Assembly: GCA_944351415.1 (NCBI GenBank)
Contig: CALVPQ010000009.1
Location: 1 to 53,509 of the forward strand
DNA length: 53,509 bases
Direction of reading: 5' to 3'
From: an uncultured Clostridia bacterium
GTDB lineage: Bacteria > Bacillota > Clostridia > Christensenellales > UBA1242
The notes beneath the pieces were generated by a model that saw only the letters and a program-made list of their open reading frames with translations, searched no databases and had not been told where the DNA came from. The position numbers were made by a program, and so were the translations under genes. This document shows positions 6,535 to 42,872 of this stretch, in pieces. Every line of letters starts with the position of its first letter. Within the stretch, counting starts at the first letter, position 1.

Positions 6535-6681
6535 ACCATAAAGAGAGTAAAAAGAAAAAGCCCATCGTTCTGATGGACATTAGAATTATTTCATTTCGCC
6601 ATCAGTCAGCCTTTAGCACCTTGAGTTAAACTTAGGTTGCTGTGTGGTCAAAGGGGCTGTCCCTCGCACACTCTTTATGGT
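6535..6681 (-). promoter_or_regulatory. SAM-I (S-box) riboswitch controlling metK
   Basis: On the minus strand the leader contains the S-box landmarks in order: AAGAG, GAGGGACAGCCCC, UUGACC, GCAACC, AAGGUGCUAA, then a terminator. GUGUG and CACAC form the helix around the first internal loop, and AACCU/AGGU form the next. The downstream strand CTGATGG (about 6605-6599) can pair with CCATCAG of the terminator, an antiterminator arrangement. An 11-bp perfect inverted repeat (6671-6681 with 6535-6545) encloses the whole aptamer plus terminator. That is unusual for the first helix of this class. SAM binding should switch off metK. Confidence 0.88.
6549..6578 (-). terminator. Riboswitch terminator hairpin
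   Basis: A 7-bp stem (one G-U pair, loop AGAAC) at 6560-6578 is followed on the minus strand by TTTTTCTTTTT. It is the expression platform of the SAM riboswitch. Confidence 0.75.
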
Positions 6682-6690
6682 TATGATATA

Positions 6691-6762: not shown

Positions 6763-6861
6763 GTGCGACAAAATTGTTTTGCGAGAATGCAAAACAAGAA
6801 ACTTTTGCCTTGGCAAAAGTTTCTTTCAAGCTCTCTTTGTGAGAGCTTGATTTTGTCGCAC
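6763..6861. repeat. Multi-hairpin intergenic element A (closing stem plus three hairpins)
   Basis: A perfect 12-bp outer inverted repeat (6763-6774 with 6850-6861) encloses three consecutive hairpins. They are 8 bp (6775-6796, loop GAGAAT), about 13 bp with a tiny loop (6797-6824) and 9 bp (6827-6849, loop TTTGT). Almost every base is paired, giving a four-way-junction fold. It lies 24 bp after the stop of the flavodoxin-ferredoxin gene and upstream of the metK promoter. The layout matches the elements at 20220 and 42557, but this copy lacks their shared 24-nt box. Confidence 0.7.
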
Positions 6862-10861: not shown

Positions 10862-10972
10862 AACCATTCCCCTAATTCCTTTATTTAACAATATACATTA
10901 TCTTTAAAGATTTTATCTATTCAAAACTACAATCATATTATAATGTTCTTTTTTTTATTTCACCTATTTTCT

Positions 10973-11168
10973 TGGAGCTAACGGCGGGAATCGAACCCGC
11001 GACTACGTCACATACTTTCTTCGTTTGCAACTTGCCTTCTGCAAGTCTTTTCGAAGCGAAAGTATGCTTCTTTCCCCACAAATCTGCCTTATTTGTGGGT
11101 GCCCCATCGACAGGTCGCGGATTTGCTTTGTTTTTCTTTTTTTTCTTTATTTGTTTTTATATTTTTTT
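10973..11168 (-). repeat. tRNA-Thr-derived tandem unit 1 (196 bp)
   Basis: The unit begins with a 31-bp exact copy of the 3' end of tRNA-Thr (T arm, acceptor 3' strand, discriminator and CCA). A hairpin-rich core follows: an outer imperfect stem of about 13 bp with an inner GACTTGC/GCAAGT(T/C) hairpin, then a CCCACAAAT/ATTTGTGGG hairpin. Next is an inverted 15-bp copy of another tRNA segment (11106-11120) and a T-rich tail. This copy differs from the other two by a few substitutions, so it is probably the oldest. The region 10892-10972 before it holds nothing recognisable. Confidence 0.85.
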
Positions 11169-11364
11169 TGGAGCTAACGGCGGGAATCGAACCCGCGACT
11201 ACGTCACATACTTTCTTCGTTTGCGACTTGCCTTCCGCAAGTCTTTTCGAAGCGAAAGTATGCTCCTTTCCCCACAAATCTGCCTTATTTGTGGGTGCCC
11301 CATCGACAGGTCGCGGATTTGCTTTGTTTTTCTTTTTTTTCTTTATTTGTTTTTATATTTTTTT
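11169..11364 (-). repeat. tRNA-Thr-derived tandem unit 2 (196 bp)
   Basis: This unit has the same organisation as unit 1 and is virtually identical to unit 3. It starts with the 31-bp tRNA 3'-end copy and contains the inverted 15-bp tRNA segment at 11302-11316. CCGCGAC and GTCGCGG near its ends can close the whole core into one branched structure. Confidence 0.85.
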
Positions 11365-11558
11365 TGGAGCTAACGGCGGGAATCGAACCCGCGACTACGT
11401 CACATACTTTCTTCGTTTGCGACTTGCCTTCCGCAAGTCTTTTCGAAGCGAAAGTATGCTCCTTTCCCCACAAATCTGCCTTATTTGTGGGTGCCCCATC
11501 GACAGGTCGCGGATTTGCTTTGTTTTTCTTTTTTTCTTTATTTGTTTTTATATTTTTT
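11365..11558 (-). repeat. tRNA-Thr-derived tandem unit 3 (194 bp)
   Basis: This unit directly abuts the 3' end of the true tRNA-Thr gene. It is two bases shorter than unit 2, apparently in the homopolymer T tracts. The inverted 15-bp tRNA segment is at 11498-11512. ORFs that read through these units are artefacts of the repeat. Confidence 0.85.
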
Positions 11559-11634
11559 TGGAGCTAACGGCGGGAATCGAACCCGCGACCTGTCGATTAC
11601 GAATCAACTGCTCTACCGACTGAGCCACGTTAGC
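11559..11634 (-). tRNA. tRNA-Thr, anticodon CGT
   Basis: On the minus strand the acceptor strands GCTAACG and CGTTAGC pair over 7 bp. The D arm contains GGCTCAGTCGGTAGAGC. The anticodon arm GTTGA-TTCGTAA-TCGAC gives anticodon CGT, and the T arm has CGGGTTCGATTCCCG. The discriminator is T, followed by an encoded CCA. It reads the threonine codon ACG. The gene is followed immediately by three tandem units that each repeat its last 31 bases. Confidence 0.95.
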
Positions 11635-20105: not shown

Positions 20106-20219
20106 ATTATTTCCTCCTATATTTTTATATTAGCAAATTTACTAAAAAAAACAAAGTAAATTTATAAAATGTTGCTCTATTTATTAAAAATTATTATTAA
20201 AAACCACTTTTTTAACTGG

Positions 20220-20371
20220 ATTTTTAGTCTAACTTAAACGAAGAAAAAGAGCGGCGGAATATAATGCAAATTTTTTTTGCATTATCATAAGAAAACATTA
20301 TGGTTTTCTTATGAAATTTTGTTTACAAAATTTATTCCGCCGCCCTGTTCTTACTTACAAGATTTTTTATT
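20220..20371 (+). repeat. Multi-hairpin intergenic element B (24-nt box, closing stem, three hairpins, AT-rich tail)
   Basis: The element starts with a 24-nt box (20220-20243), followed by a 7-nt spacer. An 11-bp closing stem, GC-rich at its base, pairs 20251-20261 with 20333-20343. Inside are three hairpins: 9 bp (20262-20284), 12 bp (20285-20314) and about 8 bp (20315-20332), with no unpaired linkers. After the stem, 20353-20371 matches the 26-bp repeat found after element C at 15 of 19 positions. The box matches the one at 42557-42580 at 22 of 24 positions. It sits between clpC and hpf, 52 bp after the clpC stop. Confidence 0.75.
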
Positions 20372-20394
20372 AGATAATAAGCTTAGAATAATTA

Positions 20395-22851
20395 TTAATC
20401 ATTAGTAAAGGTAAGTTTTCCATCTTGCTCATCAATAATAATCTCGCCTTCATTTTTAAGCTGACCAAGCAAGATTTTTTCTGCAATTTGGTCTTCAACT
20501 TCTTGCTGAATATATCTTTTAAGGGGTCTTGCACCATACTCTGAATTTGAGCCTTTATTTACAATAAAAGTAAGGGCATCTTCTGTTATCTTAAGTGAGA
20601 GATTTTTTTCTTTAAGTCTTTTGTTTATATTTGATATTAGTATCTTTGCAATCTTAACAAGGTCATCTTGAGTAAGCGGAGAAAAGATGCATATAACATC
20701 AATACGATTGATGAACTCTGGCTTAAATTTATTTTTTAATGCGTCCATATAAATAGCTTTAGAGTCGATTACTTCATCATCTTCTTGCCCACCAAAACCA
20801 AGTTGTTTGCGGTGTTCTTTAACTTCCTTTGCACCTAAATTGCTTGTCATGATGATGATTGTGTTTTTGAAGGATACAGTTCTTCCTTGCCCATCAGTTA
20901 AACGACCATCATCAAGAATTTGAAGCAGTGCATTAAGAACATCTGGGTGTGCTTTTTCAATCTCATCAAATAAAACTACTGAATAAGGGTGACGACGAAT
21001 TTGCTCGGTAAGTTGCCCACCTTCATCATAACCTACATATCCTGGAGGTGAACCTATAAGTTTTGAAACTGAATGTGACTCCATGTATTCACTCATATCA
21101 ATACGAACAATATTATTTTCATCATCAAACATAGCCTCTGCAATAGCTTTGCAAAGCTCTGTTTTCCCAACACCTGTTTGTCCCATAAATAAGAATGAGC
21201 CTATTGGTCTCTTGCTGTCTTGAAGCCCCACTCTTGAACGTCTAATTGCTTTTGCAACGGCATCTACCGCATCATTTTGCCCCACAACACGTTTATGCAA
21301 GATGTCTTCAAGATGCAATAATCTATCTTTTTCACTTTCAGTTATCTTTGTTACAGGTATACCCGTCCATTTTGATACAACTGCCGCAATTTCATTTGCA
21401 CCAATTGAATTTTTATTTGACTTCTCTTTTTTAACATCAAACTTTTCTTCTTTTTTCTTTAAATCATTTTCTAAATTTATAATTTCTGATTGAAGACGAG
21501 CTGCCTTTTCATAGTTTCGTTGCAAACTTGCTTCATCTCGACTTGATGAAAGAGCTCTGATTTTATCTTCAAGTGCCCTTATCTCTTGTGGCTTTAATGT
21601 GTAGTTTACCTTAGCCTTTGAACTTGCTTCATCTATTAGGTCGATGGCTTTATCTGGCAAGCTTCTATCAGAAATATATCTATCAGAAAGCACAGCCGCC
21701 GCCTCTATAGCTTCGTCTGTTATTGTGATTTTATGGAAGGCTTCGTAGCTATCACGGAGACCTTTTAAAATTTGTATGGTCTGTGCAACTGTTGGTGGGT
21801 TTACCATAATTGGTTGGAAACGTCTTTCTAGTGCTTTATCTTTTTCTATAAATTTGCGGTATTCATCAGTTGTTGTTGCACCAATAGTTTGAAGCTCTCC
21901 TCTTGCAAGATATGGTTTTAGCATATCAGCAGGAGATGTTTCGCCTTTTTCAGAACCTGCTTGGGCAAGAGTATGAATTTCATCAATAAAAACAATTATA
22001 TTTTTACTTGCTATAATGGTTTCTATGGCATCTTTAAGTTTCTCTTCCATTGAACCACGGTATTTTGTGCCTGCCATAAGTCCGCCTATTTCTAGTGCAT
22101 ATACAACTTTATCTTTTAAAACTTCTGGCACGTCTCCTGATACAATTGCTTGGGCAAGTCCTTCGACAACTGCGGTTTTCCCAACCCCAGCTTCACCTAT
22201 AAGCACAGGGTTATTTTTTGTTTTACGACAAAGAATTTCAACAACCCTTTGTATTTCTTCTTCACGACCTATAACTGGGTCAAGTTTATGTTCTTTTGCC
22301 TTTAATGTTATATCTGTTCCCATATCAAGCAATTTTTCTGGTAATGTGCTTCCTGCCTGCTTGTTTGATGATTGCTCAGATTTTTCTTCCCTATTGTTTG
22401 GACTTGCAGACATTAGTGCCTTTGTGACTTTATCACGAAGTCTATCAATATCAACGCCATATTGCCCTACAAGTATTCTATAAGCGACACTTCCTGTGCT
22501 TGATAAAAGTGCAAGAAGAAGGTGTTCTGTTCCAAGAAATGAATGGTTCATCTGAAGAGCTATTTGCTGTGCTATTCTGAATAAATCCTTTGTTCTTGGA
22601 GTCATTTCAACTTCATCTGAAAAAAGGATATTATCTTCACTGACATTATCTTCAAAAAACTCAAATAAACTTGGTTCTGTGACGCCAACTTCCGCTAAAA
22701 ATTGGCTAGCAAGACAGTCTTTAACGCTTGTTAACCCGTATAAAATATGTTCACTTCCGATTAGGTTCGAGCCAAAACGGAGTGCAAATTTGCTTGCATT
22801 TTTTATGACTTTTTGTATGTTGTCTGAAAATGCTGATGATTGATAATTCAT
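20395..22851 (-). CDS. clpC: ATP-dependent Clp protease ATPase subunit ClpC
   Basis: ClpC is a hexameric unfoldase that feeds substrates, including arginine-phosphorylated proteins, to ClpP. The 818-residue product has two Clp-N repeats (residues 1-145) and a first AAA module with Walker [10 protein letters not shown] (about 218) and [10 protein letters not shown] middle domain of UVR type (about 430-475, [16 protein letters not shown]) follows. The second AAA module has GQTGVGKTE (about 555), [16 protein letters not shown] and the GYVGYDEGG pore loop. The C-terminal D2-small domain ends near residue 810. It follows mcsB by 4 bp, so mcsA-mcsB-clpC form one operon, without ctsR. Confidence 0.97.
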
Positions 22852-35252: not shown

Positions 35253-38200
35253 ATGAGAAAGATTTTTAAAGTTCTATCTTATTCTCTGCTTTATTTAATT
35301 ATTTCAATAGCATCAGCTTATGGTGTTATTACTATTTCGATGAATAATTACAATAAATCACAAAATCCTGATGACCCTACAGTTGTTGTTGCTGAGGAAA
35401 TAACAACCATGATAAACCATATAACTAGTTCTAGTGCTTTGGGGCTTGACCTTGATATTGAAGTTGGAGCAAGTGGGCAGGTTTTTGATATTGCTATTGA
35501 TGGAAATATCGACTTCTCAGATGGTTTTGAAAACTTGGCGGTAGATGCTATTATTAATGTTGCTCTTAGTCAAGATAGCTCCTTTGATATTGGTGTTGTA
35601 TATAAAGATGGCAACTTATATTTTGAACTTCTTAATAATAAGTTCTTTATTGAAACTGATAACTTAATGACTTCGCTAAATCAAGTTCTTGGACTTGTTG
35701 GTGTTGAATTGCCTGATATTGACAGTATTTTAGGTTCCCTTAGTCTTGATAGCATTCTTGGTATGCTTTCAAATTTCGAAGAAATCGTTGCTGAAGATGG
35801 CTCTCTTATACTGCAAGTTGCCCTTCCAGTTGTGGAACAAATTAATCTTATATGCACTCCTGAATATAAACTGACAGGACTTAGCCTTCCACAAGCAACT
35901 ATTGAAGGTGTTGAGCTCGCTGTGAATGGTGATATAGACTATCCTGAAGAAGTTATAATTGAAGATGAAGATAGTTCAAACTATATCAATCTTACAAATG
36001 TTATCGACCTTGCCTGTGGTATTATTGACTTTGCTTCCCAAGAACAAATCGGGCTTGAATATAATGTGGTTTATAATAATATAGACCTTGCAGGACGAAT
36101 TGATATTAATATGGCAAGCAAAGCCGTTAGAATTACTCTTGGGCTTGACCAATTAGAGGCTAATTTAATCTTTATTGATAATACACTATATCTTGAAGCC
36201 TACAATATCTATGCTAAGTTTAGCATTGGGCAAGTGGGAGAAGTTGTGACTTTAGTTGAAAAATACTTTAACTTTGACTTGCCTGATGAATTAATTGCAA
36301 GTGTTGTTTCTGCTATTGAAAGTGGTGACTTTAGCGAATTGCTTGATAGTTTTGAATTGCCTGCAATTGACCTTGGCTCTATTGACCTTTCTATTCTTGA
36401 AAGTATTGTTAAAAATGGTGATGTTACTTCTATCTCTATTGCAGATATTGGTAAGATTGATGTGACTTTAAGTGATGGGAAACTTAGCTCTATTGGTTTT
36501 AATGGGCTTGGCGCTAATGCTCTGCTTAGCACAACAAACTTTACTGACTTTGCTTTAACTACTGCTACTGAAAACTACATTGACATTGCTAAACTTATCC
36601 CTACCCTTGATAATATCCTTGCTATTCTACAAAACAACACATTCTCTGGAAGTGCAGTTATCACTTACAAAGAATACAGCTTTGATGTTAACTACACTAT
36701 CCACACACGTGAAAACAACAAGTTTATCACCCTTTCAACTAGTGTGTTTGGACAAAACATTAAACTTAATATCTTTAATAACAAAGCATACCTTGAAATA
36801 AGTGAAACTAAACTTGTTTGCCAGCTTAATAACCTTGAAAATGTTATCAATAAGGTTCTTGCAACTTTTGGTGTTGAATTTGATAGTTCTTCACTAACTG
36901 ATGGGCTTAAGAGTTTAATCAATAGTGAAATCAATCCACTTTTAATCACAAGCTTTATTGAAAATGAAAATGGTATCTCTATTGCTTTGCTTGATAAACT
37001 TACAATAACTTTAACAAATGCTACAAACGAGCTTAAACTTGATGCAAACTATCAAGACTTAACAGTTAGTGCAAATGTTATTGGCAGTGAGCAAGAACTT
37101 ACTGTTCCAGTTATTACAGAAAGTCAATACTCACCTATTGAAGATATTGTTGATAGTGTGATAAATGTGTATGACTACGTTCTAGCTAAAACTTTCTATC
37201 TAAGCTTTGATGCAAGCTATCAAGATATTAAAGTTGAAGGTGCTTTAAATTATGATGTTAATGGTCTTTCAGCTACTGCTACACTTACCTATCAAAGTTT
37301 AACTGCAAATGTTATGCTTTATGAAAACAAAGTATACATTACAGCAGAAAATATTAAACTTGTGTTCAACTTAAGTGATATTGACTATGTTAAGACCTTC
37401 TTAAATCAATACTTTGGTGTTGATGTTGAGGGTATGCTTAATGAAATCTTAGGTAAGGTTGGAATTAACCTTAATAGTGAAGAAGATAGTGATATGCTTT
37501 CTAGCATATTAAATGGACTTGATATTGAAGCTTTACTTAGTGGTGCTACATTTAATATCTCTACAAACTCTATTACCCTTTCTGCTCTTGATGGACTTGG
37601 TGTTAATATTACTCTTGTAGACAAAATGATTAACAAAATTAATGTTAATTATACAATTACTGGTGAGAATGAAGAGCAAACAACAATTTCAGCAAACCTT
37701 TCAATTGAAAAGGAAATTAATAAATTCTCTGTTGCAGATGAAAGTGAATATATTGATGTTGTTGAACTTCTTGATATTGTAAAAGCATTTATTGACTTTG
37801 CTTCCCAAGAACAACTAGCTATGAATTATCAAGTTAGCTATGACGAATTAATTTTAAGTGGTAAACTTGACTTAAATATTGCAGAAAAAACCGCTAAATT
37901 ATCAATCAACTTAAATGATAGTATAAAGGCAAACGTAATCTACTCAGATGGTATGCTCTACTTTGAAGCCTACAATATCTATGCTAAGTTTAGCATTGGG
38001 CAAGTGGGAGAAGTTGTGACTTTAGTTGAAAAATACTTTAACTTTGACTTGCCTGATGAATTAATTGCAAGTGTTGTTTCTGCTATTGAAAGTGGTGACT
38101 TTAGCGAATTGCTTGATAGTTTTGAATTGCCTGCAATTGACCTTGGCTCTATTGACCTTTCTATTCTTGAAAGTATTGTTAAAAATGGTGATGTTACTTC

Positions 38201-41200
38201 TATCTCTATTGCAGATATTGGTAAGATTGATGTGACTTTAAGTGATGGGAAACTTAGCTCTATTGGTTTTAATGGGCTTGGCGCTAATGCTCTGCTTAGC
38301 ACAACAAACTTTACTGACTTTGCTTTAACTACTGCTACTGAAAACTACATTGACATTGCTAAACTTATCCCTACCCTTGATAATATCCTTGCTATTCTAC
38401 AAAACAACACATTCTCTGGAAGTGCAGTTATCACTTACAAAGAATACAGCTTTGATGTTAACTACACTATCCACACACGTGAAAACAACAAGTTTATCAC
38501 CCTTTCAACTAGTGTGTTTGGACAAAACATTAAACTTAATATCTTTAATAACAAAGCATACCTTGAAATAAGTGAAACTAAACTTGTTTGCCAGCTTAAT
38601 AACCTTGAAAATGTTATCAATAAGGTTCTTGCAACTTTTGGTGTTGAATTTGATAGTTCTTCACTAACTGATGGGCTTAAGAGTTTAATCAATAGTGAAA
38701 TCAATCCACTTTTAATCACAAGCTTTATTGAAAATGAAAATGGTATCTCTATTGCTTTGCTTGATAAACTTACAATAACTTTAACAAATGCTACAAACGA
38801 GCTTAAACTTGATGCAAACTATCAAGACTTAACAGTTAGTGCAAATGTTATTGGCAGTGAGCAAGAACTTACTGTTCCAGTTATTACAGAAAGTCAATAC
38901 TCACCTATTGAAGATATTGTTGATAGTGTGATAAATGTGTATGACTACGTTCTAGCTAAAACTTTCTATCTAAGCTTTGATGCAAGCTATCAAGATATTA
39001 AAGTTGAAGGTGCTTTAAATTATGATGTTAATGGTCTTTCAGCTACTGCTACACTTACCTATCAAAGTTTAACTGCAAATGTTATGCTTTATGAAAACAA
39101 AGTATACATTACAGCAGAAAATATTAAACTTGTGTTCAACTTAAGTGATATTGACTATGTTAAGACCTTCTTAAATCAATACTTTGGTGTTGATGTTGAG
39201 GGTATGCTTAATGAAATCTTAGGTAAGGTTGGAATTAACCTTAATAGTGAAGAAGATAGTGATATGCTTTCTAGCATATTAAATGGACTTGATATTGAAG
39301 CTTTACTTAGTGGTGCTACATTTAATATCTCTTCAAACTCTATTACCCTTTCTGCTCTTGATGGACTTGGTGTTAATATTACTCTTGTAGACAAAATGAT
39401 TAACAAGGTTAATGTTAACTATCAACTCACTGATGGGGAAAATAGTTCTGCCATTAATGCAAATATCACTGTTGAGCAGATGGCTAGTATCTTTAATCCT
39501 GTTGGCGATTATACCGATGTATCAACTATGCTAAGCTATGTTGAACTACTTTTAGATTATGTTAATACTAAAAAGATGCAATTTGGTATAAATGTAAACT
39601 ATGGTGAAAAGAATATTACAGGAAATGTTCAACTTGATATAACTTCTATGCTTCTTATGAGTGCTAGTTTAAGTTCAGAAGATATTGAAAACTTTGACTT
39701 GAATGCAAATATTGAAAATGGCATGTTCTATATTGACTATAGTGGACTTTGTTTGAAGATTGATAATGAAAACTTTAAAGAACTTATCGTTATTGTGCTT
39801 GAAGTTTTAGGTATTGATTCTAATAGTATACCTTTCCTTGAAAATGTTGACCTTGGACTTGATTTCTCTCAAATTGAAACAGACATTGCTTCTCTTGAAA
39901 TTAGTATTGATGACATTGTGAATATCTTAAAGTTGGTTAAAGGTATTGAATTAAAGGATAATAGTCTTGATATAATACTTGACGGAAAATCAATCTATAA
40001 TAACCAAAATGCAAGTGATATGATTATTTCGCTTACTAAGGAAAATGGTGCTATCAAATCTTTGACACTTTCTAATATCTACCTTGACGACACTCTTGAA
40101 ACAAAGATTGATGTTACACTCACCTTTGAAACATTAAGCAAATTTAACTACGTTGACCAAAACAAGAATTATATTGATATTTCTGGCTCAAACGAACTTG
40201 TTAAAGCACTTATCAATATGACAATTGATACAGACTTCCATGTTCAAGGCTCATTTGATATTATCGGTTCTCTTGCTGGTTTTGATATTTCTTGGAATGT
40301 TCCTTTTGATTTCAAAATCAACGTTGTGGGCAAGGGAGATATTGAACTTTATGGTGTTATTGGTGAAATCCCAGCTATGATTGGTGTTAATAATGACGTA
40401 CCTCCACAGGTTGGTGACACAGAAAGCGGTTCTGACAGATACCTTTATATCTATTATAAAGCTGGCTATGTTTATTTCTATAGAAGCGAAAAAGTTGATA
40501 TTATGTTTGGTATTAGCTCTCGAACTTATGAAAAGTGCACTAAAATTTCGATTGATACCCTTCTTGCTGACCCATTCTATTATATTCAATACTGCTTTGG
40601 TTTTACTGATACAATTATGAAAGCTATTAAGGATTCTATGAATAATCCACGCACTGAGCCTATGGACTTTGGTAATATCATATATTCTTTCACAGTTCTA
40701 GACAACAAGAATTTCACAATCAACCTTAATATGCGTGAACTTACAAATAATCCTGACCTTGATAGTTTAATTGTTTCTCTTGGAATTAAAAAAACAGCTG
40801 AAGGGAAAAATTATGTTGGTAAACTTCAACTTAGTTTATATATGCCACTTGCCGATATATTCACTCTTACTCTTTCTACTTCTGATACTCAAATCGTTGA
40901 CTATGGAACAGAAGTTGATATGAGCCCACTTTATGACTTTATCAACAACTATAAATACGGAAATGAAACTGAGTGGGAAGCAAGTAATGGTAATTGGGAG
41001 ATGTCTAGTGAAATTCTTTATCAAGTAAATTTTGTGACAAATAGTAGTGAAACTATTGAAACACAAGATTATCATTATAAAGATGGACTTAATTTACCTA
41101 CACTTTCTGACTATGTTGTTGACGATGGGATAACACACGTGAATTATCACTTTGCTGGCTGGTATGAAGATGAAACTTTTACAACAGAGTTTACAAACGA

Positions 41201-42239
41201 TACCATGCCTAGAGGAGATATAAACTTATATGCTAAGTGGGAACTTACAACTAAAAATTACTATACAATAGATTTTGTTACTTATAGTGACGATAAAATT
41301 GATAGTATAACTAAACTTGAAGGCGAAAGTATAAACATTCCTACACTTACAACAAAAGAAGTTACAGAAGAAAATTTCACTTCATACTACGAATTTGCTG
41401 GTTGGTATACAAGTGGAGATTTTGCTGAAGGCACTTTATTCAATTCAAATATAATGCCTTCTCGCAACACCACCCTTTATGCCAAGTGGAACTTAATAAA
41501 AACTGAATATACACGTCTGGTTAATGTTTATGATGGTGAAGAACTTCTATTGTCAGAACGTTTTAAAGTTGGAGATACAATCGACTTCTCATCTATAGAA
41601 AAAGTGAATGATACAACCAAGTTCTATCTTGACTCATCTTTCACTACAGAGCTAACCAACTTTACAATACAAGATAAAGACCTCAATATTTATATAAGAA
41701 ATATGTATACATTAACCTTTACAAGTGCTTATGGCAACACTAAAACTGTTACACTGCAACTCTATCAAGGCGAAAATATTACCGACAAAATACCAGAACA
41801 AGCAAGTTATGTTTACGATGATGGCACACAAACAGCACAAATAACTTATACTTTTAATGGCTATAATAGCGATACAGTTATGCCGAATCATGATGTTACT
41901 TATAGTGCAGATTGGAATGTTGATGAAAAACTTTATTACACAGTTTCATTCGACCTTAGATGGTATCTTGTTCTTGGTTGCACAGCTGGTAGCAAGATGA
42001 AGGATTCCCCTAGTCCTATCGCTTCGTTCAAAGAGTTAGAAGGAACAACTATTGATTTGAAACAGTATGCACCTACCTGCACAGCTTATTTGACTGCATT
42101 CCCAATAGATGCAAAAAACTTTAAAGCAACATCTTGGGGAACAAGTGCTTGGGGAGATTACACTGATGGTGGAAGCGGATTCACATCAATAACTATCACT
42201 GGCGACACAACCTTGTATGCTTGTTGGGAAAGAGTTTAA
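35253..42239 (+). CDS. Giant surface protein with repeated beta domains and C-terminal InlB B-type repeats
   Basis: The 2328-residue protein has an N-terminal signal or anchor segment (residues 7-28). About 1880 residues of repeated beta-rich domains follow, each with a long hydrophobic helix pair and a short strand phrase like NTLYLEAYNIYAKF or NKAYLEISETKL. These look like LolA/LppX-type half-barrels, inferred from pattern. From about residue 1922 come Listeria-Bacteroides (InlB B) repeats: FAGWYEDETFTTEF with LYAKWEL, FAGWYTSGDF with LYAKWNL, then diverged copies ending LYACWERV. No LPXTG motif is present, so anchoring is probably N-terminal. Residues about 314-794 and 904-1384 are near-identical. 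An AAGGAG site precedes the ATG. Confidence 0.8.
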   Translation: MRKIFKVLSYSLLYLIISIASAYGVITISMNNYNKSQNPDDPTVVVAEEITTMINHITSSSALGLDLDIEVGASGQVFDIAIDGNIDFSDGFENLAVDAIINVALSQDSSFDIGVVYKDGNLYFELLNNKFFIETDNLMTSLNQVLGLVGVELPDIDSILGSLSLDSILGMLSNFEEIVAEDGSLILQVALPVVEQINLICTPEYKLTGLSLPQATIEGVELAVNGDIDYPEEVIIEDEDSSNYINLTNVIDLACGIIDFASQEQIGLEYNVVYNNIDLAGRIDINMASKAVRITLGLDQLEANLIFIDNTLYLEAYNIYAKFSIGQVGEVVTLVEKYFNFDLPDELIASVVSAIESGDFSELLDSFELPAIDLGSIDLSILESIVKNGDVTSISIADIGKIDVTLSDGKLSSIGFNGLGANALLSTTNFTDFALTTATENYIDIAKLIPTLDNILAILQNNTFSGSAVITYKEYSFDVNYTIHTRENNKFITLSTSVFGQNIKLNIFNNKAYLEISETKLVCQLNNLENVINKVLATFGVEFDSSSLTDGLKSLINSEINPLLITSFIENENGISIALLDKLTITLTNATNELKLDANYQDLTVSANVIGSEQELTVPVITESQYSPIEDIVDSVINVYDYVLAKTFYLSFDASYQDIKVEGALNYDVNGLSATATLTYQSLTANVMLYENKVYITAENIKLVFNLSDIDYVKTFLNQYFGVDVEGMLNEILGKVGINLNSEEDSDMLSSILNGLDIEALLSGATFNISTNSITLSALDGLGVNITLVDKMINKINVNYTITGENEEQTTISANLSIEKEINKFSVADESEYIDVVELLDIVKAFIDFASQEQLAMNYQVSYDELILSGKLDLNIAEKTAKLSINLNDSIKANVIYSDGMLYFEAYNIYAKFSIGQVGEVVTLVEKYFNFDLPDELIASVVSAIESGDFSELLDSFELPAIDLGSIDLSILESIVKNGDVTSISIADIGKIDVTLSDGKLSSIGFNGLGANALLSTTNFTDFALTTATENYIDIAKLIPTLDNILAILQNNTFSGSAVITYKEYSFDVNYTIHTRENNKFITLSTSVFGQNIKLNIFNNKAYLEISETKLVCQLNNLENVINKVLATFGVEFDSSSLTDGLKSLINSEINPLLITSFIENENGISIALLDKLTITLTNATNELKLDANYQDLTVSANVIGSEQELTVPVITESQYSPIEDIVDSVINVYDYVLAKTFYLSFDASYQDIKVEGALNYDVNGLSATATLTYQSLTANVMLYENKVYITAENIKLVFNLSDIDYVKTFLNQYFGVDVEGMLNEILGKVGINLNSEEDSDMLSSILNGLDIEALLSGATFNISSNSITLSALDGLGVNITLVDKMINKVNVNYQLTDGENSSAINANITVEQMASIFNPVGDYTDVSTMLSYVELLLDYVNTKKMQFGINVNYGEKNITGNVQLDITSMLLMSASLSSEDIENFDLNANIENGMFYIDYSGLCLKIDNENFKELIVIVLEVLGIDSNSIPFLENVDLGLDFSQIETDIASLEISIDDIVNILKLVKGIELKDNSLDIILDGKSIYNNQNASDMIISLTKENGAIKSLTLSNIYLDDTLETKIDVTLTFETLSKFNYVDQNKNYIDISGSNELVKALINMTIDTDFHVQGSFDIIGSLAGFDISWNVPFDFKINVVGKGDIELYGVIGEIPAMIGVNNDVPPQVGDTESGSDRYLYIYYKAGYVYFYRSEKVDIMFGISSRTYEKCTKISIDTLLADPFYYIQYCFGFTDTIMKAIKDSMNNPRTEPMDFGNIIYSFTVLDNKNFTINLNMRELTNNPDLDSLIVSLGIKKTAEGKNYVGKLQLSLYMPLADIFTLTLSTSDTQIVDYGTEVDMSPLYDFINNYKYGNETEWEASNGNWEMSSEILYQVNFVTNSSETIETQDYHYKDGLNLPTLSDYVVDDGITHVNYHFAGWYEDETFTTEFTNDTMPRGDINLYAKWELTTKNYYTIDFVTYSDDKIDSITKLEGESINIPTLTTKEVTEENFTSYYEFAGWYTSGDFAEGTLFNSNIMPSRNTTLYAKWNLIKTEYTRLVNVYDGEELLLSERFKVGDTIDFSSIEKVNDTTKFYLDSSFTTELTNFTIQDKDLNIYIRNMYTLTFTSAYGNTKTVTLQLYQGENITDKIPEQASYVYDDGTQTAQITYTFNGYNSDTVMPNHDVTYSADWNVDEKLYYTVSFDLRWYLVLGCTAGSKMKDSPSPIASFKELEGTTIDLKQYAPTCTAYLTAFPIDAKNFKATSWGTSAWGDYTDGGSGFTSITITGDTTLYACWERV
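36193..37636 (+). repeat. Internal direct repeat, copy 1 (1444 bp) within the giant gene
   Basis: This block recurs at 37963-39406 (offset 1770 bp). I found a single base difference (37563, giving Thr versus Ser); I compared it by eye, not by alignment. Identity drops sharply outside both ends. Confidence 0.88.
37963..39406 (+). repeat. Internal direct repeat, copy 2 (1444 bp) within the giant gene
   Basis: Second copy of the block at 36193-37636. Silent sites are also identical, so duplication or gene conversion was recent. The flanking 326 bp between the copies are a diverged domain of the same type. Confidence 0.88.
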
Positions 42240-42241
42240 TT

Positions 42242-42277
42242 AAAAAAATAACAGAGATAATTCTCTGTTATTTTTTT
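42242..42277. terminator. Bidirectional terminator after the giant gene
   Basis: A 15-bp perfect stem (42242-42256 with 42263-42277, loop ATAATT) has A and T runs. It serves the giant gene (plus) and the small minE-like gene (minus), whose stop codon it overlaps. Confidence 0.85.
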
Positions 42278-42509
42278 AAGGTTTTATATATCCGTAAGGT
42301 TTTATGCGCTCGGCAGAAAACTCTATCCAAAAAGTGCTGTTTTTGTTCTTTTCCTTTCTAAATCGCACTTTTATATCACTATTAAGCTCTATATAACTTT
42401 CTATTAGTGGTTTTAATTCATCTTCTAACACTTCACATATATGCTGTGGGTCTGGCAATTTATCATTCCTTAAAATATTATTCATTCTTCTTTCTATTCT
42501 ATATTCCAT
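42276..42509 (-). CDS. Possible MinE (cell division topological specificity factor), diverged
   Basis: The 77-residue protein has a charged N-terminal helix (EYRIERRMNNILRNDK). A helix with Pro at its start (PDPQHICEVLEDELKPLIESY) follows, then two strands, IELNSDIKVRFRKEK and STFWIEFSAERIK. That order and spacing fit the MinE topological domain (PE-helix, YVxID..I.V.., then a final strand). It lies downstream of minD on the same strand, the usual place for minE. However, 360 bp with a multi-hairpin element and tandem repeats separate them, and sequence similarity is weak. An AAGGAG site precedes the ATG. Without a structure prediction I hold this only as a possibility. Confidence 0.42.
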   Translation of the reverse strand: MEYRIERRMNNILRNDKLPDPQHICEVLEDELKPLIESYIELNSDIKVRFRKEKNKNSTFWIEFSAERIKPYGYIKP

Positions 42510-42556
42510 ATACTTACTATCTCCTTTTTTTAAAAAACAATATATAAAAAACTTAA

Positions 42557-42674
42557 ATTTTTAGGCAAACTTAAACGAAGTGATAAAGGCACAAAAGTGT
42601 AAGCGATAAGCTTACAAAAGAAAGCAAGACTTTCTTTTAAAAATTAAATGAAATTTAATTTTTGCTTTTGTGCC
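42557..42674 (+). repeat. Multi-hairpin intergenic element C (24-nt box, closing stem, three hairpins)
   Basis: The 24-nt box at 42557-42580 matches that of element B at 22 of 24 positions and is followed by a 7-nt spacer of the same length. A 10-bp closing stem pairs 42588-42597 with 42665-42674. Inside are three hairpins: 7 bp (42598-42616, loop GATAA), 8 bp (42617-42637) and 11 bp (42639-42663, loop GAA). The stem sequences share nothing with element B, but the layout is the same. The 42510-42872 gap contains only this element and the tandem repeat that follows. Confidence 0.75.
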
Positions 42675-42680
42675 GTTTTT

Positions 42681-42784
42681 TAATACAACTTATAATATCT
42701 CTTATTTAATACAACTTATAATATCTCTTATTTAATATAACTTATAATTTCAATTATTTAATACAACTTATAATGTGAGTTATA
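42681..42784 (+). repeat. Four-copy 26-bp tandem repeat after element C
   Basis: Copies begin at 42681, 42707, 42733 and 42759. The first two are identical over 26 bp; the third and fourth differ at several positions. All keep ACTTATAAT. The tail of element B (20353-20371) is 15/19 identical to part of this unit, suggesting that it belongs to the element and was amplified here. Confidence 0.85.
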
Positions 42785-42872
42785 TTTTTGCAACTATATA
42801 AACAACTTTTTCTAATTTTACAAACCACTAAAATAGTAAAATTTTCGCTTTTTAATAGCTAAATAAGGATAT

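Follow-up and report, generated by a model that had tools for sequence, protein, structure and literature searches.

A family of intergenic cloverleaf repeats with paired changes in its stems, apparently hosted by uncultured Clostridia

REPs are repeats of conserved sequence that bear a GTAG or CGTC tag and form single or paired hairpins. The cloverleafs presented here differ from them in that they keep shape and not sequence, join three hairpins to a closing stem, and occur with no PF01797 match in the four genomes of the genus that have most of them. The attC site of integrons is recognized as a folded single strand of variable sequence; it is one hairpin with extrahelical bases, whereas the cloverleaf is a four-way junction. 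As portrayed in the sections covered of PMC3733652 and PMC2817692, REPs and BIMEs with their RAYT resemble cloverleafs as short intergenic palindromes, present in many copies and presumed to act as DNA structures. The ERIC, Efa-1 and Pae-1 stem-loop families are also intergenic and repeated, with a common fold and often on both strands; in the part of PMC2267715 covered, they were found through sequence similarity, they are single or paired stem-loops, and no cloverleaf is named. That part also mentions further complex structures, so overlap with the cloverleafs is possible. Palindromic covarying motifs of gut bacteria have been collected as candidate RNAs from human microbiomes (PMC8040213), and 230 of 250 were predicted there as terminators; the sections covered of that paper's text contain no cloverleaf DNA family. 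Hairpins shaped by template switching, in the portions covered of PMC8604942 and PMC8794818, share with cloverleafs the homogenization of arms, multi-base paired changes and loop inversion, but concern yeast coding DNA and RNA genes and not a repeated intergenic cloverleaf. A cloverleaf DNA repeat of bacteria is not named in the titles or abstract openings of the open PMC literature found, nor is one described in the sections covered of PMC2267715, PMC3733652, PMC13155455, PMC8040213 and PMC2864571.

The window, which is the whole stretch of DNA that was analyzed (53,509 bp, contig CALVPQ010000009.1), contains an intergenic element that is real and is one member of a large family. A preliminary description had given the layout of this focal element as a 24-nt box, a 7-nt spacer, a 10-bp closing stem and hairpins of 7, 8 and 11 bp. 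Our finder, which looks for a perfect Watson–Crick closing stem enclosing a given number of adjacent hairpins, returned the same stem lengths in its strict form. The second cloverleaf has a closing stem of 10 bp with hairpins of 10, 11 and 8 bp; the third, mentioned in that description as a fold at 6763, follows the same plan and lacks a box (closing stem 11 bp, hairpins 9, 11 and 10 bp). When the window was Markov-shuffled 20 times, the strict finder detected no cloverleaf, and the fold z-scores against shuffles were -6.1, -9.5 and -9.8 for the focal, second and third elements, respectively. The likeness claimed between the two boxed elements also stands, with 22 of 24 box bases identical and a 7-nt spacer in each. 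These are the only two sites in the window that match the box pattern with up to three mismatches, compared with a mean of 0.01 in shuffles. The AT-rich tail is a genuine tandem repeat, as proposed, with matches of 92%.

Table 1. Coordinates of the cloverleaf elements and of other features in the window.
Feature	Positions	Strand	Remarks
Focal intergenic element	42557-42784
Box, 24 nt	42557-42580	+	variant box in the G055 ortholog (judged by eye)
Spacer, 7 nt	42581-42587	+
Focal cloverleaf	42588-42674		strict finder
Closing stem, 5' arm, 10 bp	42588-42597	+	strict finder; identical arm in G055
Hairpin 1, 7 bp, loop 5	42598-42616	+	altered in G055
Hairpin 2, 8 bp, loop 5	42617-42637	+	loop holds about 69 nt in G055
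Hairpin 3, 11 bp, loop 3, AT-rich	42639-42663	+	strict finder
Closing stem, 3' arm	42665-42674	+	strict finder
Tandem repeat, 26 bp, 3.7 copies	42679-42774	+	judged incidental
Box of second element	20220-20243	+
Second cloverleaf	20251-20343	+	strict finder; within the clpB-hpf spacer
Third cloverleaf, without box	6763-6861	.	strict finder and fold score
SAM riboswitch	6596-6683	-
Tandem array, 196-bp unit	10967-11589		3.2 copies, 98% matches
tRNA-Thr gene	11559-11634		overlapped by the 196-bp array
2328-aa ORF	35253-42239		long internal repeats (by eye)
77-aa ORF	42276-42509

Of the neighboring features, the 2328-aa ORF probably encodes a surface protein, judging from its sequence. The 77-aa ORF presumably resembles MinE; a Pfam search with a query that carried one wrong residue gave no match. 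The 196-bp unit apparently repeats the 3' part of the tRNA-Thr gene.

The finder was applied to 819,523 bp, comprising the window and 40 stretches from five genomes, a sample that is not random, as 8 of the 20 stretches from relatives had been picked for box hits. In its strict form it detected 26 cloverleafs with three hairpins and none with two, four or five. The relaxed form detected 27 with three hairpins, eight with two, one with four and none with five, and no cloverleaf at all in one shuffle of each source. Three hairpins are the preferred shape of the family, whose members are intergenic stretches of about 90 bp in which a closing stem and three hairpins make a near-perfect four-way junction. 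Across the 453,509 bp covered of the window's own genome, the relaxed finder found 17 cloverleafs, or roughly one every 27 kb.

A covariance model (R1) built from three copies recovered 24 at E ≤5e-4, those three among them, and a second model (R2) was built from the 24. At E ≤0.01, R2 found copies in at least 36 of the 112 genomes of the genus, with at least 23 apiece in the window's genome and in G055; these counts are lower bounds, since 32 candidates were scored per genome. Among 297 genomes drawn from the family, at least 38 matched at 1e-4, in at least 8 of 42 genera (12 candidates scored per genome), and among 396 drawn from the order at least six matched, all from the same family (nine candidates scored per genome). 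Five loci from three further genera have the identical plan of a closing stem and three hairpins. An exact core pattern, too restrictive to chart how widely the family occurs, hit five contigs from three uncultured Clostridia assemblies, so that uncultured Clostridia are the apparent hosts. The preliminary description had suggested a covariance-model search of related genomes for the boxed fold, and further copies with box and fold were indeed found at L009, L010, L013, L020 and L066.

We examined 150 places, the weakest near E 0.01. Copies have a median length near 91 nt (n=148), and their closing stems often open with GGC and extend to GAAAG; in the list of the 20 commonest starts, GGC accounts for 29 of 148 stems. 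The last hairpin is mostly AT-rich in the model's orientation (AAAATTTTTAAC..GTTAAAAATTTT). Many copies score on both strands, and the model can err in orienting a single copy because the shape is nearly symmetric. Stem sequences vary among the 150 copies, even between copies within one genome. In G111 (L209:1428-1676), two nearly identical copies stand in tandem, 140 bp apart. The near-identical copies L154, L155, L156 and L049:13379 form a subfamily with a common, conserved sequence downstream, close to surface-protein-like genes (G055, G000), which suggests a larger dispersed unit.

The preliminary description held that the fold is kept while the letters change, and the stems bear this out. 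Because the finder admits Watson–Crick pairs only, pair statistics were drawn from the covariance model and from plain alignments. In the model-fitted alignment covariation was 0.879, compared with 0.199 when shuffled and 0.19-0.20 for one-column slides, and all 37 pairs change on both sides. Fitted alignments lean to their own structure, so the count was redone with plain pairwise alignments of orthologs, leaving out 52 helices below 60% identity and 13 comparisons that lacked a perfect reference fold. The 143 directed comparisons gave 4379 pairs that were the same, 140 double changes, 45 G-T, 43 A-C, 127 other mismatches and 352 gaps; both directions of each ortholog pair are included, hence these numbers are not independent events. 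About one double change was expected by chance. The 140 occur in 19 of 32 locus groups and, per pair, are commonest in hairpin 1 and rarest in hairpin 3. Single mismatches (215) outnumber them, which argues that the matching of arms is not instantaneous. An earlier figure of 606 double changes, taken from ortholog pairs in the model alignment, was too high owing to register shifts (as in L169/L175) and is superseded. In L169/L175 the differences are merely local, on the 5' side.

These paired changes accompany inheritance at the same loci. Many copies group as orthologs by 162 flank matches, from which the groups were picked by hand; pairs in opposite orientation (among them L050/L062, L108/L185, L116/L193, L117/L127 and L033/L206) and weak flank matches (such as L136/L192 and L105/L145) were omitted. 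The mean gapped identity of elements was 0.90, compared with 0.86 and 0.84 for the 80-bp flanks, and conservation was higher in the element than downstream in 41 of 57 cases and than upstream in 43 of 56. G000, G055 and G069 each have a cloverleaf in the clpB-hpf spacer, with different stems in all three, the G069 copy having a GC-rich hairpin at the position of the AT-rich one in the other two. At the minD locus, the closing stem is unchanged in G055, where the first hairpin differs and the extra sequence sits in the loop of the second; the finder detected no cloverleaf in the other 28 of 30 loci, though long-loop forms escape it, as that of G055 did. None of the 16-mers of the extra sequence (L071, around 1163-1348) is present in the other loci compared. 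At 6763, G000 has a cloverleaf, where in G055 a plain hairpin stands that retains the closing arms; in the nine other relatives that have the orthologous gene, no cloverleaf was detected by the finder within 420 bp beyond it. In L166/L171 (G060 versus G032) the 5' side of the element is unrelated while the element and its downstream flank are nearly identical, as if a rearrangement had broken at the 5' side of the element.

Two parts of the focal locus do not define the family. Of 147 copies, 15 have a box with up to two mismatches on their upstream side (14 of 89 in G000, G055, G069, G060 and G032; 1 of 58 elsewhere), compared with 1 of 147 on the opposite side and none in shuffled upstream sequence; the search zone was 28 nt long, stopped 4 nt short of the stem and does not catch L066, a boxed copy in G032. 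With three mismatches, 101 genomes gave 22 box matches, six of them at a cloverleaf, against 45 for the reversed control (hand count), and the box was rejected as a defining feature. A refined pattern with two mismatches gave seven matches in 112 genomes against four for the control, and six of the seven lie at a cloverleaf. Put to the test suggested in the preliminary description, the box thus predicts copies in close relatives, but most of the family is boxless. The 26-bp tail was rejected as part of the element, for tandem arrays are no commoner in the flanks of 148 copies (16 upstream, 10 downstream) than in control spacers (25 of 210).

We interpret the family, at about even odds (a probability near 0.5), as a REP-like DNA element of intergenic spacers, which folds once its strand is single, was inserted near genes and then inherited, and has its arms matched by template switching, selection or both. 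The shape would act at the DNA level, where the strand is single (on the lagging-strand template, in replication or in repair) or where a cruciform is extruded. DNA polymerase would switch template between the arms, which would keep them matched and flip the loops, and selection may remove copies that lose the cloverleaf shape. More tentatively, a REP-like action might consist in a structure near gene ends being met by a structure-reading protein, by gyrase or by passing polymerases. Template switching is the best mechanism for arm matching: the sections covered of PMC8604942 present it as a cause of arm homogenization and spacer inversion, and those of PMC8794818 as able to keep stems matched. 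Loops with identical arms are flipped between close relatives in L167/L173 (AAG to CTT) and L056/L065 (TTT to AAA). Among loops of equal length that differ, 7 of 34 are exact reverse complements, against a null mean of 3.3 (69 of 2000 replicates reach seven), a modest excess that comes from the 122 of 148 copies that could be decomposed and from cases that include overlapping pairs. A REP-like structural role would be our first choice, and the placement of copies seems REP-like, short of proof. Against the REP analogy, the palindromes are not conserved in sequence among copies, in stem or box, and none of the four genomes of the genus that are richest in copies (G000, G055, G069 and G060) has a match to the Y1 transposase (PF01797). 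No partner protein was found, which counts against our reading. A neighboring reading, possible though with the odds somewhat against it, is a heritable DNA element of shape only: a four-way-junction cloverleaf at fixed places whose sequence turns over, whose fold would be rewritten by template switching, and which a structure-reading function would keep.

A structured RNA, cis-regulatory or small and selected as RNA, would account for the strong covariation within a common architecture and for copies that adjoin genes; one at L010 in G069 stops 17 nt short of the start of an ORF that we take to be thymidylate kinase. Pair identities make this reading unlikely. G-T makes up 53 of 5075 standard pairs (1.0%) in the 150 copies, compared with 18 of 315 (5.7%) for 19 tRNAs from this genus (odds ratio 5.7, p 7e-8), with the tRNA register set to maximize standard pairs, which leans towards G-U, and with tRNA stems also richer in G-C. 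Between orthologs, the G-T:A-C ratio is 45:43 compared with 18:3 in tRNAs (p 0.006); A-C being as common as G-T favors DNA over RNA. The third measure, the family-wide ratio of 53:25, is indistinguishable from that of the tRNAs (p 0.17) and speaks for RNA, but on the other two G-U does not behave as a tolerated pair. Also counting against our DNA reading is a G-T:A-C ratio of 13:7 for hairpins before T-runs, compared with 89:90 for others, in a flawed control limited to one-mismatch hairpins, perfect ones being lost. Against an RNA, loops are variable, and Rfam gave no match up to E 1 for 42500-42800 and only sub-threshold matches for 20180-20400 (best 23 bits against a gathering threshold of 65.3). 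The DNA fold is likely what counts. Of the three natures guessed in the preliminary description, a DNA structure is favored, and mobility at some time is likely as well.

A bidirectional transcription terminator of unusual shape would also disfavor G-U, because both strands must fold. Placement fits a terminator in part. Divergent spacers of at least 150 bp in the stretches from the five genomes contain no copy (0 of 34), compared with 23 of 199 others (p 0.03), and 44 of 64 copies are oriented against the surrounding genes (p 0.004). The preference for gene ends is not absolute, since, when smaller ORFs were admitted in the set of 64 copies, divergent ORFs flank 5 of the 60 whose two neighbors are known. 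The six bases that precede the closing stem are enriched in A (0.40-0.53 compared with 0.34 further off), and A-runs of at least four precede it in 30 of 148 copies (16 in the control), but most copies lack a run; T-runs follow the stem in 22 of 148 (control 19), so a T-run directly after a GC-rich stem is a feature of single copies and not general. In the clpB-hpf spacer a T-rich run follows the G000 and G055 copies in the gene sense, and not the G069 copy. We regard a terminator as improbable.

A non-autonomous, MITE-like element still moved by an unseen enzyme is equally hard to credit. The clpB-hpf spacer shows insertion-like presence and absence, measuring 289, 334 and 307 bp with the element and 74-189 bp in 11 other relatives without it; filled and empty spacers are too diverged to place the ends, and target duplication is not established. 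Copies are sparsely distributed, and several G055 places have near-identical copies with shared downstream sequence, but the stems differ among copies of one genome. Flank matches gave a G032 partner for 10 of 13 G060 places, so little recent movement is seen. PF01797 is present in 13 of the 112 genus genomes, and copies occur in 10 of these 13 compared with 26 of the 99 without it; its absence from the four richest genomes led us to reject it as the mover. A viral origin was dismissed, one exact core pattern having no match in viral contigs.

Covariation is commonly read as a mark of RNA; here it is strong over 150 places, with G-T between orthologs no commoner than A-C. The cloverleaf family can serve as a test case for the conservation of structure at the DNA level and for template switching as a force that matches stems, and as a caution for the discovery of structured RNAs in gut metagenomes.
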